64,000 bases of DNA from Xanthostigma xanthostigma. Its lineage: Eukaryota; Arthropoda; Insecta; Raphidioptera; Raphidiidae. The translations under genes were made by a program, and so were the position numbers. The notes beneath the pieces were generated by a model. That model was given only the letters and a program-made list of their open reading frames with translations. It was not told the origin of the DNA and did not search any database. The stretch spans positions 18,268,001 through 18,332,000 of the forward strand of contig OY754466.1 of NCBI GenBank assembly GCA_963575645.1, given 5' to 3'. This document shows, piece by piece, positions 3,397 to 18,640 of the stretch; within the stretch, counting starts at the first letter, position 1, and the number at the start of each line of letters is the position of its first letter.

Positions 3397-3420
3397 AGTT
3401 GAGGACTGGACATCAATAAC

Positions 3421-3600
3421 GGGCTAAGTGCAAAAAAAAAAAAAAAAAGTTAGTTTCGAAAAACCAAGCTAAGTGCCATCGCCAATACCCTATAAAGCGG
3501 GCTAAGTGTTACGACCATTATAGTAGTATCTACAGGGCTGATAAGATGGCGTGAGAGGTATGTGCCGGGCTGCTGATGAACCTATAACGGGCTAAGTGCC
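3421..3600 (+). repeat. left subterminal motif array
   Basis: Four copies of a GGGCTAAGTGCC-type motif face the same way: GGGCTAAGTG at 3421-3430 (inside the terminal repeat), GCTAAGTGCC at 3468-3477, GGGCTAAGTG at 3499-3508 and GGGCTAAGTGCC at 3589-3600. With three inverted copies at the right end they probably form transposase binding sites. Confidence 0.8.
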
Positions 3601-3727
3601 ACCGAGTTTTAAATGCTTGATTTTGACGTTTGCAACTAGAACACTGAATTCTAACCTACATTATACTTTTGATTACAACTTGTGATTGTGCCTTCAGTTT
3701 GTTATTAGTTTAACTTTTGTAAGAACG

Positions 3728-5542
3728 ATGGAATTAAACAGTGACACGGGCAAAAAAAGAAAAAAAGGTGAATCAGTTCGGGATGAACGGAAAAATCGAA
3801 GAAATGAAGGGAAACCTTATTTGAATCATAAAAACGTGATGGTGGATGGAAAAACTGAGCCTAAAGAAGAGGTATGTACAAATTATTTACTTCTAATATT
3901 ATTAATGATTATTATAATGAACATTATAAATGAAATTAATGGAGGCTGTCTTGTTTTGTTTCAGTTCAGCTGCAAATGTAAGTTTCAGTGTGTTGGCGTC
4001 CCGCATAAACAAAGACTAATTCTGTTTCGCGACTTCTATGCCCTCAAAGACAATGTGAAGCAAAACTCGTATTTGATGGGTCTGATGATAATTACGCCTG
4101 TAAAAAGAAGGCGTCATGGTCAGTATAGTGATGCAAAGAATAGCAGACGACAAGCTACGGTATATTTTTCGTTGCCTAAAGGAAATGGTGACGTAGTACA
4201 GGTCTGTAGGAACACTTTTATGCATGTTTTCGCAATAACCAAACGCAGAATCGAAACTCTCGTGTCAGCCAAAAAAAAAGGAGAAGTAGTGTTTACAGAA
4301 AAACGCGGAAATAAGACCCTAAAAGGGAAGTTCACAGCAGCAGATGTGAACCTTATTATTGAACACGTTAACTCTTTTCCAAGAGACGAAAGTCATTACG
4401 GAAGAAAAAAAAGTAGCAAGGAATATTTAAGCCAAGACTTAAATATCAGCAGGCTGTACCGTGCCTTTAAAGAAAGTAATCCAGACTCCAACATTACTTA
4501 TAAGTTTTATTATCGAACCTTTACAAAAAAATTTCCGCAAATTTCATTCCATCGACCACGCACTGATACTTGCTCTAAATGTGACTTATTATCAGCAGAG
4601 ATGTTAGCAAAACCTTGTAATAGAACAGCAAAAATTGCTTTAAAAATACACCACAAAAAAGCGGATAAAGCTAGAGAAGCTATGAAACAAGATACTATAT
4701 CATCTCAGCTTCCTACTAGTGACGTATCTATGTGTTCGATGGATCTTGAGCAAGTTTTATCTCTACCCTCTTTAACCCACGGTCAAATGTTTTATTCACG
4801 ACAACTTTCATGCTACAATCTGTGTGTCCATGTCGGTGACAACAACAAGGGGCTCATGTTTTTGTGGCACGAGGGTATGAGTGGTCGAGGCGGTAATGAA
4901 ATCGCTTCATGCCTCTTTAAGGCACTCAGTAGTCCTTTTATGAATAAACGAAAACTGACCGTCTGGTCAGATAACTGCATAGGCTAAAATAAAAATAAAA
5001 TGATGGTCGTTCTTTGGATTTATTTCACCAGTACGGGCAAATACGATGAGATAAACCATAAATGTTTGGTCTCTGGCCATTCATTTTTGTCGTGTGATAG
5101 GGATTTTGCCCAAATCGAGAAACGCAAAAGGGTTGAAAAATGTCAAGTTCCTGATGATCTGGTTAAACTTATGATGAATGCAACACCGAACAATCCCTTT
5201 GCGGTTACTCAGCTCCAACCTGAAGACTTTTTTAATTTTAAACAAGCAGCCGATTCTTATATAAAAACAACACAACTCAATATTTCCAAATGCTGTTGGA
5301 TAAAAGTAGAAAAAGCTGCACCTGGAGTCGTCAAGACAAGAACCATGTTTAATGAACTTGAAGCATGGAGCACCTGCAAGGTTCTCAAAAAAGGAGTTAC
5401 CACTAATATAATTAAGGACTTAGTTTTGCCATCACAACCGTGTGTAAGCAACTTGTCAGCTGAGAAGAGGAGAGATTTGCAACAGATGCTGCCGTATTTG
5501 AAAGAAGAAAATCGAGCATTCTTCGAAAAATTAATCAATTAA
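3728..5542 (+). pseudogene. Sola-like transposase gene, one internal stop
   Basis: The gene has two exons, 3728-3871 and 3965-5542, about 573 codons with one premature TAA at 4985-4987 (codon 389). The start is ATG 3728 in an acGATGg context. The N-terminus is Lys/Arg-rich, with a basic KKRKKGE stretch, likely for nuclear import and DNA contact. A C-x-C-x3-C cluster follows at about residues 51-57 and a C-x2-C pair (DTCSKCD) in the middle. Candidate catalytic residues are D308 (MDLEQ), D384 (WSDN) and D426 or D428 (SCDRDFAQIE). The codons after the stop continue in frame (NKNKMMVV), so a CAA Gln codon probably became TAA. This falls directly after the conserved SDNC block. The last 180 or so residues are open to the natural stop. 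I infer a DDD-type nuclease that cuts and joins the element ends in the nucleus. The superfamily name is an inference. Confidence 0.8.
3872..3964 (+). other. candidate 93-nt intron in the transposase gene
   Basis: The segment starts GTATGT after a GAG codon and ends TTTTGTTTCAG. It is AT-rich with a pyrimidine-rich 3' end. Its in-frame translation is a low-complexity Ile/Leu/Asn stretch unlike the flanking basic protein, and removing it places EPKEE next to FSCKCKFQC. It is a multiple of three with no in-frame stop, so retention would not break the frame. Confidence 0.7.
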
Positions 5543-5693
5543 AATTAATTTATATTCTTTAAAAATAAAAAAAAGGTTCAAAATCATAAAATACATGACA
5601 ATGTACATAGTTGTACTATGTTTATAATAATTATTGTAAAAATATAGTAATAAACAGTTAAAATTACTATAAAAGCTTGACACTTCTTTCATT

Positions 5694-5934
5694 GGCACTT
5701 GTCCCGTTTTTGCCGATAAAGATATTATGGCACTTAGCATGTTCGTAGTTTTTTTGATTAAAATATTATTTTTCAGACATAATAAGAAGGGAATTCAAAA
5801 AAATTTTGCAATAGTAAAATGAATCTTACCCTAGACTATAAACAAAAAAATTGGTTCAGGTTTTTTTATCAAACATTTTTTGACAAAACAAAAACAATTG
5901 AATACCTCAAAATCAACTTTTTGGCACTTAGGCC
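5694..5934 (-). repeat. right subterminal motif array
   Basis: Three copies lie in the orientation opposite to the left array: GGCACTTG at 5694-5701, GGCACTTAGC at 5729-5738 and GGCACTTAGGCC at 5923-5934, the last inside the terminal repeat. The mirror-image layout suits synapsis of the two ends by one DNA-binding protein. Confidence 0.75.
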
Positions 5935-5964
5935 ATTATTGATGTCCAGTCCTCAGTTTATGTC

Positions 5965-16099: not shown

Positions 16100-16645
16100 A
16101 TACGCAAGTATTATAAAATCAAATAGGCGCAGACGACGGCGGCATCGACGCAATGGTTAGCGCGCGCGCAGAAACCGAAAGCTTACGAACGAAAGTGAGC
16201 CGAACATCGACGAATGTTAATAGTGTATGTGAGTCAGTGGGCCAGCGGCGTGGATTTCACAGCGCTAGTCTGCGATATTGGCTGCTGTTCGAAAGACGTG
16301 TTGCAGGGATAGATAAAAAAATTTTTTTTAAATGATTCTTGTGTGCATCTCTCTTGTAAAAGTGACAGTGCTATCAAATCTAATGACATTTAACTAACGT
16401 TTCGAAAGTGTTTATTATATTTAAATAAATTTGTTAGATTTTATTAATAGTGAATAATTATTAAATTTGTCAAATTGTGCCGAACAGTGACACGTTTAAA
16501 TCATAACTATTTACCATAGTGTTGTGTATTTAATAATTTTTTTGACTCAGAAATATTGTGTAAAATTTTATTGTGATGTTTACGCAAAACATAACAATTT
16601 GTTTAGTAAATTTAGACTAGTACAGTGACAAGTTTTTTCGTCAAA
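16100..16645 (+). promoter_or_regulatory. probable promoter and 5' leader of the PLDLS gene
   Basis: The stretch 16120-16300 is GC-rich against an AT-rich background (GACGACGGCGGCATCGACGC, GCGCGCGCAG), as at many insect promoters. A TCAGT initiator-like match lies at 16234-16238. The sequence 16300-16645 is AT-rich and would be a leader of about 400 nt. Two CCTAA units lie just upstream (about 16018). A 60-codon ATG frame begins at 16153, upstream of the proposed initiator. The exact start site is not proven. Confidence 0.45.
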
Positions 16646-17090
16646 ATGATGATTTTACAACATCAAATTCAACATCTAGAACGTAAGACAATGATTTCTC
16701 CAGGGTATAGTACGTCTCCTAGGAGCAGTTATTCACCTGATCACGATATTGATGAAGACATCAAACCGATTATTCATGTCGAAGATATAAAAATCGAGGA
16801 GACCAAAGATGTTGACGTTAAGCCGGTGATTTGTGGTAAGGACGAAGAAAATGAACAGACTGTTATACAGAGTAATAATTGTTGTGTTATCAAAAGACGC
16901 GTATCTATTGAGGAATGCAACGAGGACGATAATGAGTGTGTGCCTCTGGACTTGAGCGTTAACGGTGGCAGACTGAAGTTGAGTTTCGGAGTACGGGATT
17001 CCGGTACAGAGAGCGATGATTCCGGGGGACGAATGTCGCCGGAAGGTGGCGATTGTAAAGCGTACAAGAAGAGCTTGATGAAACGTTATC
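16646..17090 (+). CDS. first coding exon of a PLDLS-motif transcription factor (giant-like?)
   Basis: The start is ATG 16646 in a TCAAAATGATG context, close to the insect translation-start consensus. The open frame extends upstream only through non-ATG codons. The exon codes 148 residues plus one base and stops at a GTAAGT donor (17091). The protein starts MMILQHQIQHLERK, then an SPGYSTSPRSSYSP Ser/Pro stretch. Two acidic segments follow, including an IKIE sequence that fits a SUMO-site pattern. A VPLDLSV motif stands near residue 100; PxDLS binds the co-repressor CtBP in insect short-range repressors. Then come DSGTESDDSGG and a basic YKKSLMKRY end. I infer an N-terminal regulatory region of a sequence-specific repressor whose DNA-binding domain lies in a later exon. 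The order PLDLS, acidic-Ser, KKSLMKRY suggests a giant-like bZIP protein, but no bZIP is visible. A Kruppel/zinc-finger repressor is the main alternative. Confidence 0.7.
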
Positions 17091-18640
17091 GTAAGTTTTT
17101 TTTTATATTTATTTTATTTGTTTATGCAAATTACTAAGCTTCAATTGGACTGGAAAATTGCAGTCAAATATTTGATGAAATGTTTTTAAGTACCTGCGAA
17201 AAATCGGAAGAAAAAAATTTGAAAAATTCGTTGACACAAGGTTTGAACACATCTGACCTTAAAAGCTGGTGGTCAGTCAATTTTTATTCATTTTTTTAAC
17301 CCCGAAAATTACCTAGAAAAAAATTGAATTTTATTCTTGGCTATGCAAACCTGTGGTAAATAAAAAAAGTTTATAGAATTATACTTTCATGTATTCAAAT
17401 CTCAGTATTTAAAACAATTCAAATATTTGATGTCGAGCTTATTGTTAATATTTTGTTTACATTTAAACAAATCTGGTCTGAAAAGTGAATTTTATTTTTA
17501 TTTAGATATACGCAAAACAAGATTTTGCTGATGAACAGAGGTGACCTAAAAATTTCATTTAATTAATTGGTGACCTTATTTGTGTATATTACGTATACAT
17601 TGGTTTTTTCATTGTACAAGTCTAAATTGCATTACAGTTAAATAAATAGACAGTAAATTCGGGTTTAAAAATTATTCCCTACATTTATAAATAGTAACAT
17701 CAAAAATTTTCTATCGATACATTTTTTGAGAATTTTAAATTTTGAATAAATTACATAGCTATACATATTTTAGATGGCCTAAAAAAATTATATAATAATT
17801 GTAGAACCCCTAACTTCGTTAAAACTGATTCATTATACATTTTCCCATGCGAGGCATTTTTTCATTTTATCAATATATTCCACACAAAAAATTCTGCAAA
17901 AAATTATATTTAGATAATTTATTGTTAATCACTGAGTGTTTATATTTTTACTGAGGTATCCTTAATAATAATAATCTGTTGTTCTTTTTCCAAATAACAC
18001 AGAATTTGATAAAACGACATCCTGAGGAAAAAAATAACTCGAATTATCAGTCATCGATAAACTTTAATATCATGCGGAAAAGTGCATAGAAAACATGTTT
18101 TGTTTTATATTAATTTGTATAAAAAAACATACTTTTATAAAAAGAATCTATGTCTATAGAAAGTGCAATTAGATTTCTTAACATGCAAGAAATTGCGAAC
18201 TTGGTCTATTTAAATATTTTATTTATTTATTTATAATTGTTTCATAATGATAGATGTACGTACTTTATCTATCGCACATTTTTATGGCAATAACTGATAT
18301 ATAAAGTATAATAATAATAAATATTTGTCGAAATGCGTTAAATATGATCGTGGTCAAAATGCAAAACTGTGCATATATCGAATTTGTTTTAAAATAAAAC
18401 TAATGGCGATTTGATCGTTTCATTCAATATCCAATTATCATTTTTTGCAATAAAAGTATGCACTACCTCCCTTCCACGCGAGCATTGTGGACCACACGTC
18501 GAACAAAATTTACTCATTGACGTTTACATTTTACAGCAACTCACGTCTCATCATTTTTACGAGTTTATTTTGATTTAAAATGTTCGTAGAAAAACCCATT
18601 CGCGATGCTTGTGATCAGCAATGCTGTCCTTCTTAATCTA
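17091..18640 (+). other. start of the first intron of the PLDLS gene
   Basis: GTAAGT at 17091 opens the intron. The sequence is AT-rich and non-coding. No acceptor followed by a bZIP or zinc-finger frame was found here or later, so the intron may exceed 46.9 kb if the gene continues beyond the window. Confidence 0.5.

Follow-up and report, generated by a model that had tools for sequence, protein, structure and literature searches.

Can a DNA transposon that has lost its transposase to a stop codon still move, and by whose means? The question is raised by an element in a 64-kb stretch of the Xanthostigma xanthostigma genome (hereafter the window, meaning the whole stretch of DNA that was analysed), which the first-pass annotation had described as a near-intact, Sola-like transposon with a single disabling stop. 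We examined the architecture of the element, its copies in the genome, its transposase and its more distant relatives.

The element is a complete DNA transposon of 2554 bp located at window positions 3401-5954. Its inverted ends are near-perfect, about 31 bp each, and the outermost 19 bp are identical. Searching the window for these 19 bp with up to 3 mismatches returned 2 matches, both of them the ends of the element (mean of 0.01 in shuffled sequences). The subterminal motif GGCTAAGTGCC, allowing up to 2 mismatches, yielded 7 matches in the 64 kb, all 7 inside the element, with four on the forward strand at its left and three on the reverse strand at its right, so that all are facing inward. 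Shuffles of the whole window contained a mean of 4.36 matches and 14 out of 100 reached 7; the signal therefore lies in the placing and orientation of the motifs, not in their number. Such an inward-facing subterminal layout is usual for transposase binding sites, and we propose that the left motifs are probable candidates for this role. The terminal repeats, AGTT duplication, subterminal sites and natural stop of the first-pass annotation are all present. The features are, in window coordinates:

3397-3400, no strand: left target-site duplication AGTT, the same tetramer as at 5955-5958 (exact 4-bp duplications in 6/6 full-length copies)
3401-3431, + strand: left terminal inverted repeat, tip GAGGACTGG
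3422-3600, + strand: four left subterminal GGCTAAGTGCC-like motifs, at 3422, 3467, 3500 and 3590 (motif scan; similar in the sister family)
3728-3871, + strand: exon 1 of the transposase gene, ATG at 3728, predicted from frame and alignment
3872-3964, + strand: putative intron, 93 bp, GT-AG, frame-preserving (insert absent in the 10 other aligned proteins)
3965-5542, + strand: exon 2, with the DDD catalytic core (Pfam DUF7869) and the natural stop TAA at 5540-5542
4742-4744, + strand: first candidate catalytic Asp, D308 (D260 of exon 2), invariant in 19 rows, on model strand 254-271
4970-4972, + strand: second candidate catalytic Asp, D384 (D336 of exon 2), in SDNC.GQNKN, invariant in 19 rows and placed by the model
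4985-4987, + strand: in-frame TAA that ends the frame early, in place of the conserved Gln of GQNKN; of the six copies, only L001 has it too
5096-5098, + strand: third candidate catalytic Asp, D426 (D378 of exon 2), in GHS....D, invariant in 19 rows and placed by the model
5694-5933, - strand: three right subterminal motifs, at 5694, 5729 and 5923, inverted relative to the left ones
5924-5954, - strand: right terminal inverted repeat
5955-5958, no strand: right target-site duplication AGTT, pairing with 3397-3400

A search of the 623-Mb assembly yielded 24 matches, with all counts being lower bounds: 6 full-length copies, 5 matches to a sister family, 12 cross-matches to inverted ends and one stretch of about 50 bases on C7. 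The pairwise divergence of the six full-length copies is 0 to 0.67%. All six are flanked by exact 4-bp duplications (ACTT, AGTT, AATT, ACTT, AAGT and ATTT), and their flanks are all different, with no mutual match at E 1e-8. The copies L003 (on C9) and L004 (on C1) are identical to each other and each contains one open frame of 618 codons, while the genes of L005 and L006 are broken by frame changes. L001 (on C10, at 9.06 Mb) and the window copy are 100% identical throughout their 2554 bp, including the stop, and L001 has a duplication of its own, ACTT. The expectation that the copy is young and has relatives in the genome, among them copies without the stop, was thereby borne out: two of the copies have a fully open gene, the stop recurs in one, and same-end copies with duplications of the same length do exist.

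Short, decayed or partial derivatives were found neither in this search, with its lower-bound counts, nor among end-like sites. Five further end-like sites have 1-2 mismatches (a reversed control pattern gives 4), and blastn over 1500 bases per side detected no element sequence beside them (for L024, among the matches listed). Two sites on C10, at 33703863 and 33739193, are about 35 kb apart and both read GGAGGACTGGATATCAATAATTACT, one mismatch from the tip of the element, with similar flanks; no element sequence was found within 1500 bases on each side of either, and they probably represent an unrelated repeat. Taken together, six near-identical copies and the lack of any detected decayed derivative fit a young family that spread very recently.

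Unoccupied insertion sites could be identified for some of the copies. The right flank of the window copy is part of a dispersed repeat, and related copies of this repeat cross the window insertion point with a single tetramer at two of three loci examined, while the third falls short. The single tetramer in the two uninterrupted repeat copies is ATTT, compared to AGTT in the window. L006 interrupts a 124-bp tandem repeat, neighbouring units of which are unbroken at the same point; this repeat extends over L006:1074-1490 and 4057-4380, and the repeat finder also gives a looser period of 62 bp. For L005, repeats internal to the flanks also extend across the model junction, and L003 shows this less well. 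By the same test no such repeats were found for L001, L002 and L004.

Three of the six copies fall into a block of C10 (8.69-16.35 Mb) that makes up about 7.6 Mb or about 1.2% of the assembly. It accounts for 92 of the 150 DUF7869 matches that were scored and for 71 of the 119 such piggyBac matches, figures that cover the scored best candidates only and are not full counts. We rejected a clustering special to the DUF7869 family, since the piggyBac control clusters in the same block. The agreement of two unrelated superfamilies indicates that the block is generally transposon-rich, and it may be heterochromatin, sex-linked or a piRNA cluster. A search for five exact TTAGG telomere units gave no match. 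The window itself has only one other stop-to-stop frame of at least 150 residues (16616-17137), without a Pfam match up to E 1; it contains VPLDLS, which resembles a co-repressor-binding motif.

The transposase gene of the window copy has an open frame that begins at 3686, is interrupted by the TAA at 4985-4987 and continues to the TAA at 5540-5542. We read the 93-bp stretch at 3872-3964 as an intron because of its GT-AG ends and because the 31 residues that it would encode are carried only by the row of the element itself when 11 proteins of this genome are aligned, with the open copy L003 standing for the family of the element. The spliced gene of the first-pass annotation is supported to this extent. 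Counted from the ATG at 3728 without the intron, the premature stop is codon 389, in agreement with the earlier count, and it replaces a Gln that is invariant across the 11 own-genome proteins. A truncated product of 388 residues would be without the GQNKN block and the third Asp. The TAA had been called the only visible lesion; it is the only one that breaks the frame, but the stop-bearing pair of copies, the window copy and L001, also shares 12 private substitutions relative to the other four copies.

DUF7869 (PF25273) is the only Pfam family above the cut-off in the pieces of the window. It was matched by 11/11 own-genome proteins (best E 8.2e-19) and by 12/12 rows of an alignment of the window protein with bacterial proteins (best E 4.2e-25). 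The next-best Pfam matches were weak in both sets (E 0.026 and E 0.011, respectively), and the transposase family PF07592 gave a weak match in 3 of the 12 window-plus-bacteria proteins (best E 0.018). In NCBIfam the 12 members reached E 0.035 at best, with families that are not transposases. The comparison with transposase families proposed by the first-pass annotation thus left DUF7869 as the only good match, with no strong match to a family of another duplication length.

To describe conserved residues, we used an alignment of 19 rows, 10 from proteins of the window's genome and 9 bacterial, which left out L048 (a near-duplicate of L042) as well as L058 and L065 (contig-edge or truncated rows). 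D260, D336 and D378 of exon 2 are invariant in 19/19 rows. The three Asp named earlier (D308, D384 and D426) therefore hold, but the alternative third residue, D428, does not, being Asp in only 7/19 rows. For the window row, Gln was entered at the stop, which makes the Gln column of GQNKN partly the analyst's choice. An AlphaFold model built from 12 sequences was modest (pLDDT 71.8, pTM 0.54) and arranges its strands and helices in RNase H order. In it, D260 falls on the first strand and D336 shortly past the fourth, and D378 occupies a low-confidence loop preceding a helix. Foldseek against solved structures gave nothing at E ≤ 0.001; the best, weak matches were TnsB, UvrC and RNase HI, which have an RNase H fold, together with NurA; large enzymes of no relation, among them an acetyl-CoA carboxylase, ranked lower. 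Viral structure models gave no match with E ≤ 0.001, and a sequence search of solved structures gave none. In Pfam, DUF7869 has no assigned function. In the present proteins it spans the second and third Asp of the proposed core, and the alignment and the model make a section of a DDD transposase core its most plausible reading. No mention of DUF7869 was found in the literature searched, and a literature search on GQNKN returned only identifiers that are unrelated, judged by title.

The transposase has relatives both within the genome and in bacteria. The proteins of one sister family are 45-46% identical to the window family, and in L034, its one copy examined, GGCTAAGTGCC has 3 forward and 3 reverse matches. 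Of two sister families whose target sites were compared, famB has AATT duplications in 5/5 copies and famD has 4-bp duplications in 2/2 copies (GTTT and AATT). A profile-guided scan of bacterial and archaeal genomes found 11 loci, all bacterial by title. Inverted repeats surround the gene at 7 of the 11 (L059:2203-4318 and elements in L056, L057 and L060-L063), which we describe as bacterial insertion sequences with a DUF7869 transposase. At the other four (L058, L064, L065 and L066) inverted ends were not found; the gene of L058 starts at a contig edge. Exact 4-bp duplications in the same register flank 3 of the 7 elements with inverted ends (AAAT, ATTT and AATT); an exact duplication is absent in the other four, but the flanking tetramers are A..T in all 7. 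These insertion sequences, from Desulfocicer, Thiomargarita, Desulfobacterales and others, have the same invariant D, GQNKN and GH....D motifs as the window protein, whereas protein identity is 17-24% and their tips are GGGG-like. The Desulfocicer vacuolatum element lies directly behind a cut-short frame that, by eye, resembles another transposase. Bacterial relatives are rare: they occur in 11/291 genomes of one class, in several cases through matches that are short or weak, and in 2/369 and 1/269 genomes of two other classes, counts that include the source genomes of the queries. In a viral collection, none of 12 pattern matches was confirmed as a relative, and plasmids searched with the Desulfocicer protein gave no match.

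Which superfamily does the element belong to? A review describes Sola transposons as having DDD transposases, 4-bp duplications, a size of mostly 2-9 kb and inverted repeats of 11-1124 bp, with hosts that include bacteria and metazoans (PMC10741241). The element agrees in its 4-bp duplications (6/6 full-length copies), its three candidate catalytic Asp (19/19 rows, in RNase H strand order in the modest model), its inverted repeats of about 31 bp, its length of 2554 bp and its 11 bacterial loci, 7 with inverted ends. We conclude that membership in the Sola superfamily, as inferred in the first-pass annotation, is well supported by published descriptions. Within Sola, the Sola2 group shares with the element the DDD transposase, inverted ends, 4-bp AT-rich duplications, the 2-9 kb range and presence in bacteria (PMC3627910, PMC10741241). 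The first of these reports AT-rich AWWT duplications for amoebozoan Sola2 elements, such as ATAT, AAAT and ATTT (PMC3627910). Strict AWWT duplications are found in 2 of the 6 copies (AATT and ATTT), in 5/5 famB copies, in 1 of 2 famD copies and in the three bacterial elements with exact duplications. In contrast to Sola2, the element family also uses ACTT, AGTT and AAGT, which fit ANNT but not AWWT; the famD duplication GTTT fits neither. Further, the published amoebozoan Sola2 elements include an 888-aa transposase and carry Fanzor1, unlike the window element. The targets, which fit AWWT in part, suggest the Sola2 group, and we refer to the element as Sola2-like, a likeness by description. 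Passages from five further papers (PMC10294476, PMC4455052, PMC11071193, PMC12477816 and PMC6875170) gave no further diagnostic Sola feature.

The element could also belong to a distinct superfamily, as yet unnamed, that has only the 4-bp duplications and the three Asp in common with Sola. This would be in line with a domain that Pfam calls unknown, with NCBIfam matches no better than E 0.035, none of them transposases, and with a comparison with Sola made by description. We consider this quite unlikely, since size, DDD motif, inverted ends, bacterial relatives and the 4-bp, mostly AT-rich A..T targets all agree with the Sola and Sola2 descriptions. Some groups among the piggyBac, Ginger, Academ and other transposons also give short duplications, and the weak PF07592 match in 3 of 12 proteins (E 0.018) might hint at one of these or at another transposon. 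However, DUF7869 matches far better in every protein scanned, and piggyBac and integrase profiles are absent from the Pfam match lists, which makes such an assignment hardly conceivable. PiggyBac is characterised by a TTAA duplication (PMC7351741) and a DDE_Tnp_1_7 domain, and Ginger by a Gypsy-like integrase (PMC10741241); the duplications here are ANNT, not TTAA, DDE_Tnp_1_7 is not among the Pfam matches, and neither is any integrase family.

How the stop came to be present at two loci is the second matter to be decided. The window copy and L001 share the same stop and all other letters, while their sites, duplications and contigs differ. On this comparison of sequences, the broken copy most likely moved after it broke. 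Gene conversion could instead have spread the stop between two identical copies, with no transposition of the broken copy, and identity over all 2554 bp is what it would produce. Yet this identity reaches both tips while 4-bp duplications and contigs differ, converting the whole element is less direct than one jump, and L003 and L004 are likewise identical copies at different sites; we therefore regard conversion as unlikely. Exon 2 contains six of the 12 substitutions private to the pair. One is the stop; ahead of it are two silent changes, and behind it are three that alter an amino acid, as expected without constraint after the stop, with numbers too small for a test. A clustering of 4 of the 12 within 80 bp was borderline (simulated P = 0.04) and was set aside. 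The stop-bearing sequence being present as two insertions might also mean that the stop is read through, or that the 388-residue product still functions and the element is not dead. This is highly improbable: the GQNKN block and the third Asp, invariant in 19/19 rows, would be missing, and the three amino-acid changes in exon 2 all lie downstream of the stop, tiny as these numbers are. Transposition of the broken copy remains our preferred explanation. With ends and binding sites intact, the stop-bearing form could still be moved in trans, and intact sister copies probably supplied the transposase, judging from one pair of copies.

Direct observation covers the ends and duplications of the element, its six copies, the unoccupied sites, the two open copies that are identical and the presence of the stop in two separate insertions. 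We conclude that the element is probably a young Sola2-like DNA transposon, whose window copy kept its ends intact, would have been inactivated by the TAA and would have been moved in trans by intact sisters. We propose that the transposase of intact copies would bind the repeated subterminal motifs and would cut at the GAGG tips by means of a DDD, RNase H-type active site, and insertion would presumably use a 4-bp stagger at ANNT sites. In the window copy, the TAA at the conserved GQNKN motif would have removed the catalytic C-terminus, while its intact ends and binding sites would allow intact sisters to mobilise the stop-bearing form in trans.

Beyond the first-pass annotation, the analysis adds the stop in two insertions, the identical open sisters, the Sola2-like grouping and a proposed transposase role for DUF7869. 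The last connects this domain with a DDD transposase core found both in a eukaryotic genome and in bacterial insertion sequences, which are rare, and it could give a name to many proteins at present listed as unknown. The element itself offers a clean case: a single stop cost a full-length copy its transposase, yet the copy evidently moved all the same, beside two identical open copies. The stop-bearing pair is a natural snapshot of autonomous elements turning into passengers. More tentatively, the family may still be jumping in Xanthostigma xanthostigma, where intact and inactive full-length copies coexist and broken ones could be parasitising intact ones during an ongoing invasion.
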